Positions 8,172 through 17,612 of a stretch of 39,288 nucleotides of DNA are shown here, one piece after another. Made by a program: the position numbers and the translations under genes. The stretch spans positions 1 to 39,288 of the IMG/VR virus record IMGVR_UViG_3300023176_005370; one strand, given 5' to 3'. The notes below the pieces were generated by a model. That model was not told where the DNA came from, did not search any database, and saw only the letters and a list, made by a program, of their open reading frames with translations. Source of the stretch: a virus. Position 1 is the stretch's first letter. Every line of letters begins with the position of its first letter.

Positions 8172-8762
8172 TTATCCTTCTAGCTTAGACTTAAGCTCTT
8201 TGATCATAGTAGGCTTACTTTTACGGCCATCTAAGATGATACCAATAGATTCTGCATACTCGTCAATCTCTTTCTTAGACATTCCGGCCAACTCTTCGTC
8301 AGACTTCACGTCACCTTCCGGTTTAGCTACAGGCTCTTCCTTCGGCTCTTCAACTTTAGGCTCTTCAACTTTAGGCTCTTCCTTCTGTTCTTCAACTCTA
8401 GGCTCTTCCTTCTGTTCTTTAACTTTAGGCTCTTCCTTTGGTTTCTCGAACTTAACTTCCTCAGCCTTAGCGGCCAGGAATAGAGGCTTACGTAATGCCT
8501 TAACTGCCGCTGCACGCTCATCGATAGATAATTCAGACCATTTCTCGCCGGTCACCGGAGCCGATACATCTACTGGTACGCGGATAATTGATCCTACGCG
8601 ATATACGTTACCGATTACGTCAGTTACCTGCGGAGCGTTAACCTTTAGGTTACGGCTGTCTACTCCAGTTACTAGCGGTAGGGCTACAGGGCCATTGCCG
8701 AAATCAATATTGAATCCGTTAGCCGCCTCTACCCATGCCTTAATACGTTCTACTTTACTCAC
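8172..8762 (-). CDS. Unknown protein with Glu-Pro-Lys repeats and a SAP/HeH-like C-terminus
   Basis: A 196-residue protein in three parts: a beta-rich head of about 95 residues (including VYRVGSIIRVPVDVS); a low-complexity linker of repeating EEPKVEE/EPRVEE units (about residues 105-150); and a C-terminal 36-residue helix-extended-helix segment (MSKKEIDEYAESIGI...MIKELKSKL) typical of SAP/HeH DNA- or protein-binding domains. The next gene upstream has a similar tail. It overlaps that gene by 4 nt. Head-proximal structural role likely; function unknown. Confidence 0.65.
   Translation of the reverse strand: MSKVERIKAWVEAANGFNIDFGNGPVALPLVTGVDSRNLKVNAPQVTDVIGNVYRVGSIIRVPVDVSAPVTGEKWSELSIDERAAAVKALRKPLFLAAKAEEVKFEKPKEEPKVKEQKEEPRVEEQKEEPKVEEPKVEEPKEEPVAKPEGDVKSDEELAGMSKKEIDEYAESIGIILDGRKSKPTMIKELKSKLEG
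8334..8440 (-). repeat. In-frame degenerate repeat encoding EEPKVEE units
   Basis: Read on the plus strand, GGCTCTTC recurs at short intervals with near-identical spacers (CTTCTGTTC, AACTTTA). On the coding strand this gives the Glu/Lys/Pro-rich linker of the 8172-8762 gene. Units of about 15 and 30 bases can be seen, so slippage could change copy number between relatives. Confidence 0.75.
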
Positions 8763-9082
8763 TTTAAATGCTCCTTCAGTTTATCAATCATGACGCCTTT
8801 AGTCCATCCCTTATTAAGGATAAGACCCTTCTCTTTGGCTAGTGATCGAATCTCCGTCTTTGTCATTGCGTTATAGTTAATTGGTGCCGGTTTCGGCTCT
8901 TTCTTGGGCTTAGGCTTTTCGAAAGTCTGCTTGACGTCCTTGCCTAGTACCATACGAGAACCTTTTGGATACTCATGTTTACCGACAGTCATCTTAGAAG
9001 CAATTACTTCAATAAGCGCAGTACGACCATAATCCTCAAGGATCTTGACGCGACCTCTAGCCCAATCAGGTATCTTCCACAT
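8759..9082 (-). CDS. Small protein with SAP/HeH-like C-terminus
   Basis: A 107-residue protein. An N-terminal beta-like domain (residues 1-50) is followed by a KPKPKKEPKPAP linker and a C-terminal helix-extended-helix segment (MTKTEIRSLAKEKGLI...GVMIDKLKEHL). That tail resembles the C-terminus of the downstream 196-residue protein, so the two look like diverged partners. It is first in its operon, just after a late-type promoter at 9101 and beyond the capsid-gene terminator. GGAGAAT-type ribosome site. Function unknown. Confidence 0.65.
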   Translation of the reverse strand: MWKIPDWARGRVKILEDYGRTALIEVIASKMTVGKHEYPKGSRMVLGKDVKQTFEKPKPKKEPKPAPINYNAMTKTEIRSLAKEKGLILNKGWTKGVMIDKLKEHLK

Positions 9083-9162: not shown

Positions 9163-10122
9163 TTAAAGGGCAGGAGAAATCTGACCGATAACGAAAGCTT
9201 TGGTGTTACCGATACCAACACCTACAGACTCGTAAGTCTTGAAGCTAATCATGTCAGCTTCGGCTTTAAGGTATACAGTAGGCTCTTGTAGGCTGTAGAA
9301 CTGGCCTAGGTAAGCTTCTGGTGCGAACGCAATAGCGATATCGCCTTTAGCAGCTTGTTGAGCCGCTTCGTCACCACCGTCTAACCAGGCAGAGTTCAAG
9401 ATGTCTGACTTGTTAGAAGTAACGATTTCGAAGCCGTAGAAGCTGTCCATAGAACCGCTGTCGAAGTGACGGCTAGCTACTGCATCACCTAGTTGAGTAG
9501 CAGGCTCACGTAATAGAGCTAGGTACAACTGGTGAGAAAGTAAGATCTTGCCAGGCTTCTGGAATTCGTTAACTAGGTTTTGAACAAGCTGCATGATCTT
9601 GTCAGTAACAGTAGCACCGCTTAGTTCAGTAGTTAGGTAACGCTTACCTTTTTCAGTGTTGAAGATTTCAGCTAGAGCAGCAACGAAGTTGCTATCTTCT
9701 TGTTTCTGAATGTCTTTAACGCTGTTTTCTTGTAGAATGTTACGGATGTCAGTCTTGTATGTAGCAAGCTCATACTTAGACTTAGTGAATTCCGCAGATT
9801 CGATTTTGTGGAAACCTACTTCGTAGCGAGCGCCTTTGAAGTAACGAGTTTCGCTTACACCGTTTAGAGCGATTGTAGCAGCTACAGAATCAGGCTCTTT
9901 CTCGATGATTACTCGAGGAGTATCATCTAGACCACGGTCTAGGTCACTAGCAGTAACCATTTGAGGTGTGAAGATCTTACGGGTAAAACCGTCTTCACGT
10001 AACTTTTGGCGAACGAAAGTAGACATGGCAGCGCCAGCTTCTTTAGTTAGGCCTTGATCGATCTTATCGATGAACGCTTGGTTCAAGAACTGAACGTTCA
10101 GAGTCTCAGTTGCGTATTCCAT
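9163..10122 (-). CDS. Major capsid protein
   Basis: A 319-residue protein with the size, composition and location of an HK97-fold capsid subunit: after protease, scaffold-like and decoration-like genes, before connectors. Features include an N-terminal helical arm, an E-loop-like region (VSETRYFKGARYEVGFHKIE), a spine helix (VTDKIMQLVQNLVNEFQKPG) followed by ILLSHQLYLALLR, and A-domain strands at the end. Residues 25-30 read LTKEAG, matching the K-x-A motif repeated in the scaffold and protease, so an N-terminal propeptide of about 27 residues may be removed. The strong terminator downstream suggests high expression. Confidence 0.85.
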   Translation of the reverse strand: MEYATETLNVQFLNQAFIDKIDQGLTKEAGAAMSTFVRQKLREDGFTRKIFTPQMVTASDLDRGLDDTPRVIIEKEPDSVAATIALNGVSETRYFKGARYEVGFHKIESAEFTKSKYELATYKTDIRNILQENSVKDIQKQEDSNFVAALAEIFNTEKGKRYLTTELSGATVTDKIMQLVQNLVNEFQKPGKILLSHQLYLALLREPATQLGDAVASRHFDSGSMDSFYGFEIVTSNKSDILNSAWLDGGDEAAQQAAKGDIAIAFAPEAYLGQFYSLQEPTVYLKAEADMISFKTYESVGVGIGNTKAFVIGQISPAL

Positions 10123-10614: not shown

Positions 10615-11142
10615 TTAGCTAGTAAGGAATTGAGCCAATGGATCTAGAGTCGAGTCAACTCGATCTGCCGGTCCGCCCATATTCATAGGTATGTTATCTA
10701 GACTATTCGCAACTTTCTGCAGAGTACCTGCATTAAGGCTTTGCAATTCATCTAACTCTTCTTGAGAGAATACTCCCCGACCGTCGATAGCGGCGACAGG
10801 GCCTGATTTCTCAGCCTGACTAGCAGCTTTCTCCATGTCCGAGATGATAACGTCTTTAGTATCTAGTTTAACCTCTAAATCATTTACGTAACTTGCTGTT
10901 TTCTCTAATACTTCAGCTAGTTGCTTATATTCTTCGGCTCGGGCTAGATCTGATTGTAGATTCGGGTTAGCTTCACTGGCTAGTTTCATCAAAAGCGGGG
11001 TAGCTTCTTCAGCTGAGATTCCGCCTTCTACTAGAGCAGCGCTTGCTGACTTCTCGATTTCCATCCAGTCGTCAGCTAAGCCAGAAGCTTTACTTGCCAA
11101 ACCTTGAGATTTTGCCCGAAGCAAATCTACGATATCTGACAT
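10615..11142 (-). CDS. Head-module protein, scaffold/core-like
   Basis: A 175-residue, highly helical acidic protein. It contains repeated K-x-A-S motifs: IEKSAS, LMKLAS, LEKTAS and MEKAAS, the same motif found in the neighbouring scaffold-like protein and protease. The central part (about residues 65-110) has coiled-coil character (KQLAEVLEKTASYVNDLEVK). It probably forms part of the inner core or scaffold and may be cut by the maturation protease. AGGAGT precedes the ATG. No named family recognised. Confidence 0.6.
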   Translation of the reverse strand: MSDIVDLLRAKSQGLASKASGLADDWMEIEKSASAALVEGGISAEEATPLLMKLASEANPNLQSDLARAEEYKQLAEVLEKTASYVNDLEVKLDTKDVIISDMEKAASQAEKSGPVAAIDGRGVFSQEELDELQSLNAGTLQKVANSLDNIPMNMGGPADRVDSTLDPLAQFLTS

Positions 11143-11151
11143 GATTACTCC

Positions 11152-11463
11152 TTACTTCTTATCTTTAGAAGCTTTTTCTTTCTCTTGCTTCTTGGCACGA
11201 GCAATTCCCATATCGCGTACAGGACCCCCTGCCCAGTGAGTGTAGCCTTTAGTAAGCTTATGAGTCGCTAAGCCTCCGGCAGCTGCACCGCCGATACCGC
11301 CAGCTGCAATAAGAGCCTTAGCTGCAGAAGCGGTCTTAGACATCTTCTTACCGTCCTTAACGCCTTTCTTATATTGAGTGGCGTTAGATTCGATAGCCCC
11401 ATCTACAGATCCTGTAAGAGATCCTACCATGGATCCACCTACGGCACCGGCACCTGCTGCCAT
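11152..11463 (-). CDS. Frameshift-encoded C-terminal extension of the scaffold-like protein
   Basis: The frame is open upstream past the ATG at 11463 to the end of the 231-residue gene, and the ATG has only a weak AAAGG far upstream. It is best read as the product of -1 frameshifting at 11538-11544, giving a 359-residue fusion in which 25 residues from 11538-11464 link the two parts. This part is Gly/Ala-rich (GAGAVGGSMVGSLTG, LIAAGGIGGAAAGGLA) with a very basic C-terminus (KKQEKEKASKDKK), and could bind membrane, DNA or portal. Independent translation is possible but less likely. Confidence 0.65.
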   Translation of the reverse strand: MAAGAGAVGGSMVGSLTGSVDGAIESNATQYKKGVKDGKKMSKTASAAKALIAAGGIGGAAAGGLATHKLTKGYTHWAGGPVRDMGIARAKKQEKEKASKDKK

Positions 11464-11504
11464 AGCAGTATTTGCACCAGTACCTTTAGGGAAGGCTTTC
11501 TTAA

Positions 11505-11544
11505 GGGACTCTTTAGCTTTACTAAGAGCGCCTTTTACTTTCCC
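11505..11544 (-). promoter_or_regulatory. Programmed -1 frameshift signal
   Basis: The heptamer G_GGA_AAG (11544-11538, minus strand) is in the correct phase, with the TAA stop of the upstream gene as the next codon. After a 5-nt spacer comes a stem-loop: GGCGCTCTT (11532-11524) pairs with AAGAGTCCC (11513-11505), with one mismatch and a 10-nt loop. The slippery heptamer is the same as in lambda G/GT. After slippage, reading continues as Val-Lys-Gly into the 103-residue frame. Confidence 0.75.
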
Positions 11545-12230
11545 AGGCTGGCAGCTTCCTTAACTAGAGCTACTGCGTCATCAAATGCGATACCGTCTTG
11601 CTCTACAAGTTCACTAACAGCAGCAGCTTTTTCTAATTCAGAATAACTAGCTTCAGAAGCCTGCTTGACTAGAAGTACTGCATCTTCAAAATCAATACCT
11701 TCAGCCATCAATTCATTAACAGCAGCTAATTTCTCTAGCTCTGCTTCTTTCTCAGAAGCCTGCTTCATGATAGCAGCCGCTTCTTCTAGAGTCTTACCTT
11801 CAGCGATAAGCTCAGAAGCTTGCTTAGAGATGTCAGAAGCAACAGCAGCACCAGGAGCGCCTACGTTATCTTCTTTAACTTCGTCAGTGTCAGCATCACC
11901 GCCGCGCTCAACGCTAGCTTTAGCTGCTTCAGTTACAGTCTTACCTTGTACTTGGTTCAACTCTTCTTTCTTGTCGTCATCAGCAACCATTGCAGCAGTT
12001 TCGTCCGCTACGTTGTTTGCTTGCTTAACCATCGCTAGGATGCTTTCTGCTAGTTCTTTACCAGTTAGGTTCATTTCGCTCTCTCCTTGATCGGAAGCTT
12101 CTTTGGTTAGTACAGATTTAAGTTCGTCAGCTACAGAAGTCTCGGATTCTGATGCAGCCTTTTCAATAGTAGTCTCTTCCTCAACAGGAGTCAGACTATC
12201 TAATAGACTATCGATAGATAGTTCACTCAT
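11535..12230 (-). CDS. Scaffold/core-like head protein (zero-frame product)
   Basis: A 231-residue, very acidic, helical protein directly after the prohead protease, where scaffold proteins lie. It contains about nine copies of a hydrophobic-x-K-x-A motif (IEKAAS, LTKEAS, ISKQAS, IMKQAS, LVKQAS, LVKEAAS), often following ELxxEGxxFEDAxxL repeats of about 35 residues. These could be maturation-protease sites or heptad-like packing units. It terminates at TAA within a -1 slippery site, so a minor longer form of 359 residues is predicted. Its ATG directly follows the protease stop. Confidence 0.7.
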   Translation of the reverse strand: MSELSIDSLLDSLTPVEEETTIEKAASESETSVADELKSVLTKEASDQGESEMNLTGKELAESILAMVKQANNVADETAAMVADDDKKEELNQVQGKTVTEAAKASVERGGDADTDEVKEDNVGAPGAAVASDISKQASELIAEGKTLEEAAAIMKQASEKEAELEKLAAVNELMAEGIDFEDAVLLVKQASEASYSELEKAAAVSELVEQDGIAFDDAVALVKEAASLGK

Positions 12231-13676
12231 TTAGATATTCTCCAATTCTTTACGGAGTGATAACTCCATAAGTTTAGTAGTAAGGCCAGCAGATTTTTCC
12301 ACTGTATTACTAGATTTTACTTCGCTTGCAGACTTAGTAAATGATCCAGCAAGGGTATTTATCATAATCTTGGCTACGATAGCGCCCCCTACCAGCTTGA
12401 GTAAGCTGCCTGCATCTCCAATAGAACCCGGGTTAAACAGGGTCCTGGATCGGTCGAAGTACTTCGAGTTCGCTACAGGGGTCCTTCCTACCTGCCAATT
12501 GGCATGGCCTGTTGAAGCACGTTTCTCAACGTATTCTCGTTGGTAACTAGAGCCTTCCATATACTTAGCGAGTACCTTTACAAGCATCTCGTTAGGCTTC
12601 GGATTGCTAACATCAGGAATCAGTCCATGAGCATCTAATGGAATGGCATCTTTGCCGTAGACATTGAGAGCGCTCATAGCTAGACTAGAAATCTGTTCTT
12701 CTTCCTGTCCAACATATTTACCTGCTAATATTTTAATCAAAAATCTCAGCGATGGGTTAATTCCCAAATAGGCGAAACTCGTGATGATATCTTGTAGAGG
12801 GAACTGTTTAAGTACCTCAAGGATATCGCTGTCCGGATCCCCTACCTGGCTAAGGATATCATTAAGATTATCGGATGCGTCCACTGCATCTCCATCTGTC
12901 ATCTTAATGAGGTCGGCCGCCTTATCTATAGCTTCTTTCAGTATAGAGGCTTTCTTATCTATGCCGTAGGATACACCTTCCATTTCGGCAGCCTCTGCTG
13001 AACCGACTACGTCTTCTATCTGATTCGCTACCTTAGTCAATACTGCTGAGGTGATATCGGCAGGGCGGATAACGATAGAGATGTCGAAGAACTTAAGAGG
13101 CCCGGCATTGATAGCCATAACCTTACGGCCATCCGGTAGTACTTTATTAAGCTGAGTCGATAGATGACTGCAGTATTCTGCACGGGAGTGCGCTTTATTA
13201 TTGCATACGCTACATACATCGTACGGCGTATGGCATGCCATAGAGGTAACCGGGAAGTTCCCGTCTTCTATAGCAGCTAACTCTGGAGCACCGAGAGATC
13301 TATCTACTTCGGCGATAAGTTCGACCCTATGCATGCGCGGGTTATAGTACGAATAGATTACCTTACCGATCGCCTTCGCAGGATCCTTATTGACATGATG
13401 TCTGAATACATGGGCCGGACTCGTCTCGAAAGTCTTATGCCATTGTATTAGATTATCCTCTGGGAAATAGTCTCCATTACGATTAGATCCATAGTACTCA
13501 CCGGCACCCATCGCATTGATATGCAGATAGAACTTATCCGGCTGCTTGGAGATTTTCTTAGAGAAATCAATGACCTCCTGGGCGGCGGCTGCCTTCTCTA
13601 GACCTTCAGAGTCTTCACCCAGTAGGGTTACCTCCCAGTCTTCTGAGAAGGATTCGCTATCTAATAGTTTATCCAT
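12231..13676 (-). CDS. Prohead core maturation protease
   Basis: A 481-residue protein. The N-terminal 240 residues carry the prohead serine protease pattern: YYGSNRNGDYFPEDN, then HVFRHHVNKDPAKAIGKV with the likely catalytic His, a VELIAEVDR strand, and FPVTSMACHTPYDVC with the likely nucleophilic Ser. A Cys-rich insertion (CSVCNNKAHSRAEYCSHL) looks like a zinc site. The C-terminal half is helical, larger than needed for the protease, and may be a scaffold-like tail. LEKAAA near residue 27 is a candidate self-processing site. GGAGA precedes the ATG; a terminator lies just upstream. Confidence 0.8.
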   Translation of the reverse strand: MDKLLDSESFSEDWEVTLLGEDSEGLEKAAAAQEVIDFSKKISKQPDKFYLHINAMGAGEYYGSNRNGDYFPEDNLIQWHKTFETSPAHVFRHHVNKDPAKAIGKVIYSYYNPRMHRVELIAEVDRSLGAPELAAIEDGNFPVTSMACHTPYDVCSVCNNKAHSRAEYCSHLSTQLNKVLPDGRKVMAINAGPLKFFDISIVIRPADITSAVLTKVANQIEDVVGSAEAAEMEGVSYGIDKKASILKEAIDKAADLIKMTDGDAVDASDNLNDILSQVGDPDSDILEVLKQFPLQDIITSFAYLGINPSLRFLIKILAGKYVGQEEEQISSLAMSALNVYGKDAIPLDAHGLIPDVSNPKPNEMLVKVLAKYMEGSSYQREYVEKRASTGHANWQVGRTPVANSKYFDRSRTLFNPGSIGDAGSLLKLVGGAIVAKIMINTLAGSFTKSASEVKSSNTVEKSAGLTTKLMELSLRKELENI

Positions 13677-13692
13677 TTAGGTCTCCTAAAAC

Positions 13693-13716
13693 AAAAAGAG
13701 CCCGCATAGCGAGCTC
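13693..13716 (-). terminator. Terminator/attenuator upstream of the protease
   Basis: On the minus strand GAGCTCGC-TAT-GCGGGCTC (8 bp, one G-T pair) is followed by TTTTTG. It lies between the 193-residue gene and the protease in the same direction. With no promoter motif recognised in the short gap, it may act as a partial terminator that lowers downstream expression. Confidence 0.75.
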
Positions 13717-13722
13717 ATATAA

Positions 13723-14304
13723 TTAGCGGATCATAGATGCTGCACTAGGGTTGTTCTTAGAGAACTTCTCTTCTAAGTCAGCTAGAGTCTTCATAGTATG
13801 AAGGTCTAGACTCTCGGAATCTACATAGTGCGCTAATACGTTACTTAAGGTATTAACATCTTGTGCTACAGTAGGAGCTACTCTGAAGATACTGTCTCCG
13901 AAGCTCTTGATACGAGCCAGCTGCTCTCCTTCTAATCCACGTAAGATTTGGTTGCGAGATAGGGCTTGACTCAAGGCTTGCTCATAACGAGAGCGACCTG
14001 CTGCATTACCTGTAGCAGAGAATGCCTTTCGTGCTGCCATAGAACCTAGTACGCCCAGGGCGCCTACGCCTAATCCTGCAATACCAGTGCCGATACCTTT
14101 ACCGAAGCCGTCGGTGATATTCTTGATAGCACCGCTGGAACGTAGGCTATCCATAAAACTGGCTTCTTTATCAAGACCCAGTTCCATAGCCATTACGCCG
14201 AATTCCTCAGCAGCCTTTTCAAGATATTCCTGATAGCCTTCCTGGTCAGATGCCTCTTTTTCTAGCGGCTCAGCCATAAGGGCTTCTAAAATTTGCTCTT
14301 TCAT
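13723..14304 (-). CDS. Head-module protein with Gly-rich hydrophobic segment
   Basis: A 193-residue protein. The N-terminal 50 residues contain three K-x-A motifs (LEKEAS, LEKAAE, LDKEAS). A Gly/Ala-rich stretch (GIGTGIAGLGVGALGVLGSM, about residues 70-90) resembles a membrane-active segment. The rest is helical. These traits fit an internal head protein that is proteolysed and perhaps ejected with DNA. The short gap to the upstream gene indicates one operon with 14306-19983. Function unknown. Confidence 0.6.
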   Translation of the reverse strand: MKEQILEALMAEPLEKEASDQEGYQEYLEKAAEEFGVMAMELGLDKEASFMDSLRSSGAIKNITDGFGKGIGTGIAGLGVGALGVLGSMAARKAFSATGNAAGRSRYEQALSQALSRNQILRGLEGEQLARIKSFGDSIFRVAPTVAQDVNTLSNVLAHYVDSESLDLHTMKTLADLEEKFSKNNPSAASMIR

Positions 14305-14305
14305 A

Positions 14306-15241
14306 TTATCCTCTTAAGCTATTCCAAGCGTCGTATGTACGGTTAGTACCTCGAGATACTTCAGCCGCAGAATCCGTTACGGACCATGCGTTATACATTC
14401 TGCTTGTCGTTTTGTTAGCGGCCATCTTATCCGCTACCTTCTTAACAGAAGCACCTGCACGTTCTACTCCCGGGATCGACTTCATAGTGTTACCTACTAC
14501 TCTAGCTGAGTTAGCTAATAGAGGAGCTAGGAAGGCCTGCTTCACCATCTCTTCTGCATGCTCAACCTTAGGAGTAAGATCCTTGATCTCGGAAACTACT
14601 TGGGCAGCTTTTTCTAATGTGTCTGAAAGAGATTTTACGCCGGCCAGGTCGTCCTGAGAGTATAGAGTAGTAGATTCAACTACCTCTCCGCCTAATAGGT
14701 TAGCCATACGCGCTGATTCAGATACGTGTGCAATCTTCTCGAATACCTTCTCGTCTTTCTTAAGCGCCTCGGCCTGTTTAACGATATCCCACTTCAGGGC
14801 ATCGCCTTGGTGCCAGAGGTCCGTCAATTTGCAACGTCCTTCCGAGGCTACCTTGGTAAGGGCCTTGGTCTTTTCGCTGTCAGATAGATCTCGTACGCTA
14901 GCTTCAGAAGCAACCTTCTCCATAGGCACATCGAATATAGATGCGATGTCAGATAGGTCGGAAGCAGACTTTTCAATAGAGGCCTCTGGAAGCATAGAAT
15001 CTACTATACTGTCATAATCCGCTACGTCAAATTCAAAGGTTCGATCATCGGCAGATTCAAGTTGAGCCAAGTATGCTAATTGGTTAGACATCTCGACTAG
15101 GCGCTTAATCTGCTCTGGGTTTAATTCTAGACTCTCTGCCAGGGCGATAATAGAGTCGTTAAGAGGAGTACCTTCTGCCACTAACGACTTAACGTTATCG
15201 GTAGATAGCTCCTTTAGTCTTTCTGGGGAAAATTCCATCAT
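14306..15241 (-). CDS. Head-module protein with repeated K-x-A motifs
   Basis: A 311-residue helical, acidic protein. It has at least seven motif copies: IEKSAS, MEKVAS, LTKVAS, IVKQAE, FEKIAH, LEKAAQ and MVKQAF, spread from about residue 95 to 240. The C-terminal 70 residues are basic and lack them. The pattern is shared with the scaffold-like protein and protease, suggesting a common processing or assembly role. It overlaps the upstream gene by 4 nt (ATGA). Two Met codons open the frame. No family recognised. Confidence 0.6.
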   Translation of the reverse strand: MMEFSPERLKELSTDNVKSLVAEGTPLNDSIIALAESLELNPEQIKRLVEMSNQLAYLAQLESADDRTFEFDVADYDSIVDSMLPEASIEKSASDLSDIASIFDVPMEKVASEASVRDLSDSEKTKALTKVASEGRCKLTDLWHQGDALKWDIVKQAEALKKDEKVFEKIAHVSESARMANLLGGEVVESTTLYSQDDLAGVKSLSDTLEKAAQVVSEIKDLTPKVEHAEEMVKQAFLAPLLANSARVVGNTMKSIPGVERAGASVKKVADKMAANKTTSRMYNAWSVTDSAAEVSRGTNRTYDAWNSLRG

Positions 15242-15885
15242 GATTCCTCACGTAGATTTGCGATACTAGGAAGCTCTAGGTCATCCTCTGTAATCTTGTT
15301 AAGGGCAAGTTCGAATTCCGCCTTAGCATCATCTTCATCAACTGATATATCACTAAGTAGCTTAGCGAGAGTAGTTGCCTGTCTGGACCATTTAAGTCCT
15401 TCCTGAGATGCTTCTGCAGTATTGCTATTGAAGAATGCCTCTTTGCTTCGGAAGTATGCATCTGCCTGGAGATCAACTAGACTTTCCTGAAGAGAAAGTT
15501 TATGACCTACGCCGAGTCTCCACTTGATGAATCCGATACCGTTCGTCATGGCCCACTGCTTGAGATTACGCTCATCTTCATCTTCTATGCCAGCAAGATG
15601 ATTAACCTTATGTATTCTCGATAGTGAATGCACGTCGTAGTAGATATCGTGATAGAACATCAATACATACTTATCGATTTCAAGTATCTCGGATAGAGTA
15701 TCAAAATCCTCGGAGGCTAAGAGGCCTGCCTCCACGTAGATTCTGACAATCTTATCTAAGAAAATATCTTTGGCCTCTTTAATGATTCGAGAGTCGACGC
15801 AGTCGTTAAGGACTGAATCGACCATACTGTCTTTGCCGGCTACTCTACGAATCATGAGCCAATTTCGGTAACCTGGACTAGACAT
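15238..15885 (-). CDS. Unknown head-module protein
   Basis: A 215-residue, mostly helical protein lacking the K-x-A repeats of its neighbours. The region GFIKWRLGVGHKLSLQESL and the Tyr-rich VLMFYHDIYYDVHSL stretch are the most distinctive parts. It begins on the last base of the upstream stop and overlaps the downstream start by 4 nt, so it is tightly coupled in the operon between the polymerase fragment and the protease. Function unknown; a structural role is inferred from location only. Confidence 0.6.
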   Translation of the reverse strand: MSSPGYRNWLMIRRVAGKDSMVDSVLNDCVDSRIIKEAKDIFLDKIVRIYVEAGLLASEDFDTLSEILEIDKYVLMFYHDIYYDVHSLSRIHKVNHLAGIEDEDERNLKQWAMTNGIGFIKWRLGVGHKLSLQESLVDLQADAYFRSKEAFFNSNTAEASQEGLKWSRQATTLAKLLSDISVDEDDAKAEFELALNKITEDDLELPSIANLREES

Positions 15886-17612
15886 TAACCGTTACTCGAT
15901 AGATTCTCTAGTTCAACATAGTTGTCACCTAATACGCGTAATGAGTTACGGGTAGAAGTGATTAGACTGTTGAGTGCTTCAGAGTCCATGTCATCGGTCA
16001 ACTTGCCTGAATTCAATCGGATTAAGAATAGCGTACGGCCAAGCTTATCGATTGCCTCTTTAATCTCAGGAAGGTATTCTTTAATAGAACCGTGTAGGTC
16101 TGGATTACGCAGCATCTCAGAGATGATAGTCGCTTCCATGATCTCACGATCTTTTACTTCAGCTACTTCACGTACCTTATTAGGTAGATTCGTTTCAGTA
16201 TCCGGTGGTAACTTATCTCCGTAGGATGGAATCTCTGCGGCTTCCTTACTCATACGGAATACTAACTTAGTGCGTTCTTCTGCAGACTTAATTAGAGTCT
16301 CTGCCGTCGGTACGGATAGTGCCCATTCACGAAGTGCATATTCCAGCATCTTAATCTTAGGGCCTACCTCTTTACCATCTACTGCGTACGTTCCGTCACG
16401 CTCCATGATGCTCTTAACTACAGGAAGAATCTTAGATTCACCAGCCTCTAGAGCTGCCTGTGCAGTATTGACATCGGTAATGACATTAACCCTTTCTTCA
16501 CGATTCATAACGATGAATGTAGAAGACAGAGGATTCAAGAAGATCCCTCTACCCGTCTTACCGCCACGGCCGTGTACAGATTCGTGTACATTAACTGCCC
16601 CTTTACTCGTCTCGATCTTGATCCAGTCGCCTGAAAGAACGACATCGTAAACAGATAGAGGACCGATAACTCCGTCTCCGGTATCAATCAGACCGTAGTC
16701 ACCTTTAGATACAGAACCTAGAGGTTTATGAGTCAGCTTATCTAGTACGGCATCCGATGGCTGAGCAGTGGCAAGACCGATAGCATCTCCCGATACTCTG
16801 GCTCCATTCTCTGCTACGAATACGTTATCGGACTGTACTGGAGAATATCCGTCTAGGATTGCTACAGATAGGCTGTCACCGAAAGAGACTAATTGACGAG
16901 CTTCACCGGCTACACCTGCAGAGATCTTCTCGATCGCCTGGTTGTTTCCTGCAATTACTGCAACTCGCCCAGCCTTAGGAGCGTTCTTAACGATATATCC
17001 TTTTTCTAGGATCTCCTGGATCTCTTCTTCAGATAGGCCTTTAGCGGAAGTTACTACCTCTACTTCTCGAGGGGCTGGAAGATTAATCTCCGGGGCAACG
17101 CGGCCTAGACACTCCATAAGAGCCTCTACAGGCATTACACGATTGATCTCTTGAGCTACCTTCTCGATATCGCTCTTCATTTCCTGACGGAGTTCATTAG
17201 AAAGTGAATCGATGAATGAGTGTAAACGACCTTCAGATGCGTATAGGTACTTACCGGTTTTCGGCGGAGTAATTGCATCCTTAAGTGACGGATTACGTAC
17301 AGAATTCTTAGAATCCTTGGCGACACCCATCTTAGGCTTTGTATCGATGAACCACTTGACGTACTTCTTGGTTAGGGGTATGAACATTTTTGACTCGGCA
17401 CAGTATAGAGTCTCGATAGGTTGGATCCTATCTGACTTACTAACTACCGGTACATAAACAGACGCACCTTCAATGTCTAGGATAAACATCCCGACGTGGA
17501 TGCCAGAATCTTCCGGCATCTCATCTGAAAGGTCTCTAAATGCAGTCACGTATTTCGCTAGCTCAGGAGCCTGTTCATTCAGCTTCACTAGAGCATCTTT
17601 AGATAATACCAT
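15885..17612 (-). CDS. Large unknown protein next to polymerase gene
   Basis: A 575-residue protein directly downstream of the beta-prime C-terminal gene, with AGGAG before its ATG. The N-terminal 120 residues include IHVGMFILDIEGASVYVPVV; a central beta-rich region includes GDYGLIDTGDGVIGPLSVYD and GRGGKTGRGIFLNPLSST; the C-terminus is helical. IEKVAQ, LIKSAE and similar motifs appear. It could be a virion protein or a partner of the phage RNA polymerase, but I see no domain that decides. Function unknown. Confidence 0.65.
   Translation of the reverse strand: MVLSKDALVKLNEQAPELAKYVTAFRDLSDEMPEDSGIHVGMFILDIEGASVYVPVVSKSDRIQPIETLYCAESKMFIPLTKKYVKWFIDTKPKMGVAKDSKNSVRNPSLKDAITPPKTGKYLYASEGRLHSFIDSLSNELRQEMKSDIEKVAQEINRVMPVEALMECLGRVAPEINLPAPREVEVVTSAKGLSEEEIQEILEKGYIVKNAPKAGRVAVIAGNNQAIEKISAGVAGEARQLVSFGDSLSVAILDGYSPVQSDNVFVAENGARVSGDAIGLATAQPSDAVLDKLTHKPLGSVSKGDYGLIDTGDGVIGPLSVYDVVLSGDWIKIETSKGAVNVHESVHGRGGKTGRGIFLNPLSSTFIVMNREERVNVITDVNTAQAALEAGESKILPVVKSIMERDGTYAVDGKEVGPKIKMLEYALREWALSVPTAETLIKSAEERTKLVFRMSKEAAEIPSYGDKLPPDTETNLPNKVREVAEVKDREIMEATIISEMLRNPDLHGSIKEYLPEIKEAIDKLGRTLFLIRLNSGKLTDDMDSEALNSLITSTRNSLRVLGDNYVELENLSSNG

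Follow-up and report, generated by a model that had tools for sequence, protein, structure and literature searches.

Slippery heptamers at the end of a scaffold-like head gene suggest programmed -1 frameshifting in related phages

The head gene region and its products

The window, by which we mean the whole 39,288-nt stretch of viral DNA analyzed (IMG/VR record IMGVR_UViG_3300023176_005370), carries on its minus strand a head gene region in which a protease-like gene is followed by an ORF for a 231-aa protein with an extension in the -1 frame, then by two small genes and the major capsid gene (Table 1). This order bears out the original prediction, which had placed the frameshift site between a prohead protease and a capsid gene: the upstream neighbor is protease-like (phrog_18299) and a capsid gene lies downstream (PF05065). 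Relatives recognized by their capsid and scaffold proteins comprise Vibrio phages D69, D148 and D181, Salmonella phage Arash, and IMG/VR contigs. The D69 group (loci L002 and L003) is represented here by the sequences of D69 and D181, with D148 included by BLAST match only.

Table 1. Features of the head gene region of the window
Feature	Position	Strand	Evidence and remarks
Head-maturation-protease-like upstream neighbor	12231..13676	-	phrog_18299 head maturation protease, E 1.9e-6; best match phrog_2774 (unknown function), E 1.1e-15
Zero-frame ORF, 231-aa scaffold-like or internal head protein	11535..12230	-	ORF and homologs in D69, D148, D181, Arash and IMG/VR contigs
Slippery heptamer G_GGA_AAG	11538..11544	-	Zero-frame phase; abuts TAA at 11535-11537; identical in L007, L008, L002 and L003
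-1 frame extension, 128 codons and stop; basic, Gly/Ala-rich	11152..11538	-	Matching -1 ORFs in L008 and L002
Candidate stimulator stem-loop	11503..11534	-	Outer 4 bp, mismatch, 6 bp, bulge, 3 bp; L002 and L008 have other, stronger stems at this position
Next downstream gene, 175 aa	10615..11142	-	In D69 and L008 an ortholog that has an SD of its own comes after the extension
Major capsid protein	9163..10122	-	PF05065, E 7.9e-8; homolog annotated as major capsid protein in Arash

The 231-aa protein is built of repeated EKAA..GxxFxxAVxLVK modules. Neither this protein nor the extension matched a family in Pfam or PHROGs. Modeling with AlphaFold gave low-confidence structures, with helices only, for the extension (mean pLDDT 45.6) and for a single-ORF relative (mean pLDDT 52.7). 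We infer the label 'scaffold' from the position and character of the protein. Phage scaffolding proteins are required for prohead assembly and are then removed or cleaved during maturation. In Arash virions, the zero-frame protein has its homolog in gp223 (9 unique peptides, 283 spectra), which was detected together with gp224 (8 peptides, 222 spectra), the product of the separate gene downstream (PMC10585845). The occurrence of gp223 in mature virions fits an internal head protein or the leftover of a cleaved core.

Proteins of the head cluster (10618-17612, minus strand) are strongly enriched in a short motif, [LIVM]xK[AQSETVL]A, which is rare elsewhere in the window. It occurs 9 times in 11538-12230, 5 times each in 10618-11142 and 12234-13676, 7 times in 14309-15241 and 3 times in 13726-14304, against shuffled means of 0.14-0.49, and could be a target of the maturation protease or an assembly tag.

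The slippery site and its background frequency

The zero-frame ORF ends ...GCC AGC CTG GGA AAG TAA on the minus strand, so that G_GGA_AAG lies in phase directly 5' of the stop codon, as originally claimed. The -1 frame entered by slippage begins VKGALSKAKES... and stays open for the 128 codons that had been predicted, the last at 11155; the anticipated fused form of 359 residues (231+128) is likewise of the correct length. The original prediction was mistaken in giving this frame a single ATG, since the frame contains four, at codon offsets 25, 36, 65 and 109 after the slip. The first of these is preceded only by GGTG at 11 nt, and the second and third have partial SD matches (AGGTG at 5 nt and TAAGGA at 10 nt, respectively).

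The word GGGAAAG is not itself unusual in the window, where 2 copies were found and 3.9 are expected by chance; what sets this copy apart is its phase and location. Given the residues encoded and the codon usage of each sequence, the chance of the heptamer is 0.029 in the window, 0.011 in L008 and 0.007 in D69. A background count covered ORFs 100 aa or longer from the window and the loci, with L001, L026, L027 and L091-L097 dropped as copies and identical 60-nt gene ends counted once. An open -1 frame means little alone, since 263 of these 1173 distinct ORFs have one of at least 80 codons past the stop. A strong in-phase heptamer near the stop (A_AAA_AAG, G_GGA_AAG, C_CCA_AAG or T_TTA_AAG) combined with at least 60 open -1 codons occurred in only 8 of the 1173, and 7 of the 8 are in the scaffold-like gene, D69 and D181 being counted as two. 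The AAAAAAG 13 nt before a stop in L074 is followed by only 20 further codons and was not counted.

Such a heptamer is not proof in itself, as the eighth case, the T_TTA_AAG directly before the TGA of ORF 8759-9082 (minus strand), makes clear. That TGA overlaps the GTG start of 8172-8762, which is preceded by AAGGAG, and we rejected the heptamer as a frameshift site in favor of ordinary translational coupling. The proteins of these two ORFs carry similar short segments at their C-terminal ends.

Conservation of GGGAAAG and of the -1 frame

The conservation of the heptamer in relatives, proposed with the original prediction as a check, was examined. GGGAAAG-TAA-AA is identical in three diverged lineages, namely the window with its near copy L007 (a twin contig), L008, and the D69 group, and the -1 frame is open past the stop in all of them (127 codons in the window and L007, 166 in L008, 158 in L002 and L003). 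Only these three lineages carry GGGAAAG; a scan with the junction DNA pattern matched contigs of L008 and L007 only, and a scan with the D69 scaffold as query matched no viral contig. Zero-frame dS among the three lineages is about 1.4-1.6, with synonymous sites near saturation, and consequently the identity of the junction is not merely a sign of recent identity.

The protein encoded by the -1 frame is conserved from its first post-slip residue. Of the first 25 residues, 12 are identical between the window and D69 in an ungapped alignment that begins at residue 1, ahead of every ATG in the window frame. None of 10,000 shuffles reached this value, and the next best of 10,676 positions of L002 (the D69 locus) gave 8. 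Differences between the window and L002 in these 25 codons number 11, 11 and 12 by codon position; third-position bias is therefore absent, and the case for selection in this comparison rests on residue identity and not on a synonymous ratio. The extensions of D69 and D181 differ by 7 changes. Six of them affect the third codon position in the -1 frame, among them all 3 that precede the ATG at offset 57.

Possible starts in the -1 frame differ by lineage (ATG 25 in the window, ATG 9 in L008, TTG 4 and ATG 57 in D69), mostly lack a ribosome site, and include no start conserved within the GGGAAAG clade. A weak internal start is possible in some sequences, such as the TTG at offset 9 in L038 of a second clade and the ATG at offset 9 in L008. 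Since there is no conserved start and the protein is conserved from the first post-slip residue, the comparison indicates that the -1 frame is translated as an extension of the upstream gene. Note that the D69 and D181 records begin the downstream ORF at an internal ATG (L002 5924-6232), omitting 57 codons of the -1 frame, and that the beginning of this omitted stretch is conserved with the window.

The stem-loop downstream of the heptamer

The original prediction had described a 5-nt spacer and a 9-bp stem-loop with one mismatch. A stem is indeed present, though it is only modestly unusual and the spacer is not exactly 5 nt: the minimum free energy (MFE) stem of the window begins 3 nt past the heptamer and consists of 4 bp, a 1x1 mismatch, 6 bp, a bulge and 3 bp. 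Its MFE is -11.8 kcal/mol in the 40 nt past the heptamer, with a z of -3.15 against dinucleotide shuffles; the folding z of a 121-nt piece is -1.1, and synonymous recoding gave P values of 0.021 at 42 nt, 0.29 at 51 nt and 0.16 at 60 nt. The stems of the other GGGAAAG lineages are stronger and start 5-6 nt past the heptamer, with an MFE of -22.5 kcal/mol in 50 nt for D69 (z about -4; synonymous-null P 0.022 at 51 nt) and of -18.6 kcal/mol for L008 (z -3; P 0.053 at 51 nt).

A second clade with A_AAA_AAG

In a second clade, the homologous gene carries A_AAA_AAG starting 13 nt before TAA in all seven loci (L037, L038, L039, L040, L042, L044 and L053, which represent three distinct sequences: the L042 type, the L038 type and L044). 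The site is embedded in 47 nt, from -14 to +33, that are invariant in sequences differing elsewhere, and a long stem has its arms preserved (synonymous-null P 0.088, 0.024 and 0.015). The -1 frame of this clade encodes Gly-rich stretches and more modules of the repeat found in the zero-frame protein. Over the first 50 post-slip codons, pN in the -1 frame is 0.11-0.14 and pS 0.48-0.54, a relation reversed in the other two frames, and L044 lacks ATG, GTG and TTG throughout the opening 63 codons of a -1 frame that runs for 273. As judged from these substitution patterns, purifying selection acts on the -1 frame ahead of any codon at which translation could start. Furthermore, the fused products align with the single-ORF proteins of L045 and L046 from residue 1, across the junction (at about residue 285), to residue 389 or beyond, with 56-62% identity and E below 1e-144.

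The capsid tree placed the GGGAAAG and A_AAA_AAG clades in opposite, well supported halves. Consequently, the two frameshift devices most likely arose independently, a single very old device followed by many losses being the formal alternative. L045 and L046, which have identical capsids, nest within the A_AAA_AAG capsid clade and lack the site, which indicates that the site was lost there or that the gene was exchanged.

Other arrangements among relatives

Among 43 loci, the gene has a Gly/Ala-rich stretch in frame in 18 (a rough class, set by an arbitrary threshold of Gly/Ala-richness), no such stretch in the ORF in 13, GGGAAAG in 5, and AAAAAAG in 7. A recognizable scaffold homolog is absent from 28 of the 70 loci scanned. 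L009 and L010 have a short in-frame Gly-rich end, behind which L009 has a standalone gene for a 128-aa protein, with GAGG before its ATG. This protein matches the window extension at 35% over 77 residues (E 3e-8 in a single comparison) and the D69 extension at an E of only 0.5. The scaffold homologs of L023 (4346-6277, 643 residues) and L049 (4276-6033, 585 residues) contain, in a single frame, several modules together with Gly-rich units, an arrangement that looks like a duplication of the extension.

The Arash group has no heptamer; the stop is followed by a hairpin and then by a separate gene with its own start and ribosome site, and fusion is therefore not essential across the family. A proposed correspondence of the window tail with a domain of Arash gp224 was not supported (profile comparison probability 3.6%). 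The original prediction had named, as counting against it, relatives in which the heptamer is lost and the downstream frame has its own ribosome site. Taken literally, the Arash group is of this kind, and it does not refute the window case because it belongs to a separate lineage of the capsid tree and because the GGGAAAG clade has no conserved start.

Frameshifting and its alternatives

We put at roughly 0.87 the probability that programmed -1 frameshifting at G_GGA_AAG gives a minor share of the scaffold-like internal head protein a basic, Gly/Ala-rich extension. The original prediction of a programmed frameshift thus finds support in the heptamer and open frame of three lineages, the site of the A_AAA_AAG clade, the signature of purifying selection, and fused products that match single ORFs. 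As in bacterial-type X_XXY_YYZ frameshifting, a shift-prone heptamer lies in the zero-frame phase upstream of a stop, and in both clades the -1 frame is open and under coding selection.

Could the downstream frame instead be a separate gene, reached by re-initiation or from an internal start? A similar protein does stand alone in L009 behind its GAGG, the Arash group also has a separate gene, the D69 record has the ORF begin at an internal ATG (L002 position 5924), and the window ATGs at offsets 36 and 65 have their partial SD matches. However, in no frameshift lineage is a start conserved, residues ahead of every window ATG are conserved with D69, and L044 is startless for 63 codons, a stretch over which the second clade shows selection in the -1 frame. 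We regard a separate gene as improbable on this evidence.

Slippage of transcription rather than of the ribosome is harder still to credit as the cause of the frame change. The six-A run of the A_AAA_AAG clade could in principle slip, but the runs of GGGAAAG are only three long, and the exact X_XXY_YYZ phase of both sites is not something that such slippage needs. Least credible is an accidental heptamer and open frame, produced by chance or a sequencing indel. Neither the abundance of GGGAAAG in the window nor the length of the open frame, given how common long open -1 frames are (263 of 1173 ORFs with at least 80 codons), speaks against accident; the recurrence of the same junction in three diverged lineages, from isolates as well as metagenomes, does so, as do the separate site of the second clade and the codon-usage probabilities (0.029, 0.011 and 0.007).

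Under programmed frameshifting, most ribosomes would terminate at the TAA after the heptamer and release the 231-aa protein. A minority would slip back one base, their tRNAs re-pairing on GGG-AAA, probably aided by the downstream stem, and would append 128 residues to give the 359-aa form. The short form would dominate, with slippage at a few percent if the site behaves as GGGAAAG is known to do. The 231-aa protein would serve as a prohead scaffold or internal core protein, and the long form may anchor or organize the core (at the shell, the portal, DNA or a membrane) in a set proportion, its basic, Gly/Ala-rich tail being a possible anchor. Because relatives keep this signal or another signal at the same place, slippage appears, from sequence comparison, to set the ratio of short to long scaffold-like protein.

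Comparison with known systems and significance

To our knowledge, frameshifting in structural genes of phages is known from tail chaperones and from capsid and tail subunits. The G/GT tail chaperone genes of lambda, whose heptamer is GGGAAAG, lie between the major tail and tape measure genes. The heptamer and the making of two products with a common N-terminus are shared with the present case, but the lambda genes are tail genes; here the site lies outside such a setting, between protease-like and capsid genes. In TP901-1, heptamer use is described for the same class of tail chaperone gene (PMC4493119). Other accounts term G_GGA_AAG highly shift-prone in E. coli (PMC5009743) and give frameshift efficiencies of about 3.5% for lambda and about 10% for T3/T7 (PMC9965538).

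Nearer to our case are the kuraviruses (phiEco32-like) and Privateer, in which GGGAAAG occurs near the stop of the major capsid gene (PMC9965538, PMC7881722). The likeness extends to the heptamer, its place near the zero-frame stop, and a minor head protein with a C-terminal extension, but the gene is the major capsid gene there and a scaffold-like gene between protease and capsid here. Frameshift-extended capsid proteins are also described for T7/T3 (gene 10A/10B), Lactobacillus phage A2 and Listeria phages (PMC5009743). In these too, frameshifting yields a longer form of a head protein; there, however, it is the capsid subunit, in some cases with Ig-like extensions or +1 shifts, and here a non-capsid protein with a basic, Gly-rich extension. 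Unlike gene 10A/10B, the frameshifted gene of the window (11535-12230) is not the major capsid gene (9163-10122).

The same source describes CsoS2A/CsoS2B of alpha-carboxysomes, in which -1 frameshifting adds the C-terminal part of a repetitive shell scaffold (PMC5009743). The likeness lies in a repetitive, disordered scaffold of an icosahedral shell with a frameshift-added C-terminus; carboxysomes are bacterial organelles and the protein is unrelated, so the analogy is one of working only. The extension of major capsid genes in phages by way of GGGAAAG is known already, and in the literature searched, mostly papers open without subscription, we found no report of frameshifting in a phage scaffold-like gene.

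We lean towards the view that two lineages independently made the C-terminal extension of a prohead scaffold or core protein dependent on frameshifting, with G_GGA_AAG or A_AAA_AAG near the end of the same gene, and that relatives either fuse the extension in frame to every copy of the protein or encode it in a gene of its own. Frameshifting would then set the share of core subunits that bear a Gly-rich anchor, comparable to CsoS2 in carboxysomes. For the Vibrio phage D69 group, the annotation from an internal ATG probably misses the true product. Frameshift dosing of a scaffold or core protein, which apparently arose twice and gives way in relatives to an in-frame fusion or to a gene of its own, would provide a natural experiment on the need of a phage for a fixed ratio of short to long core subunits.
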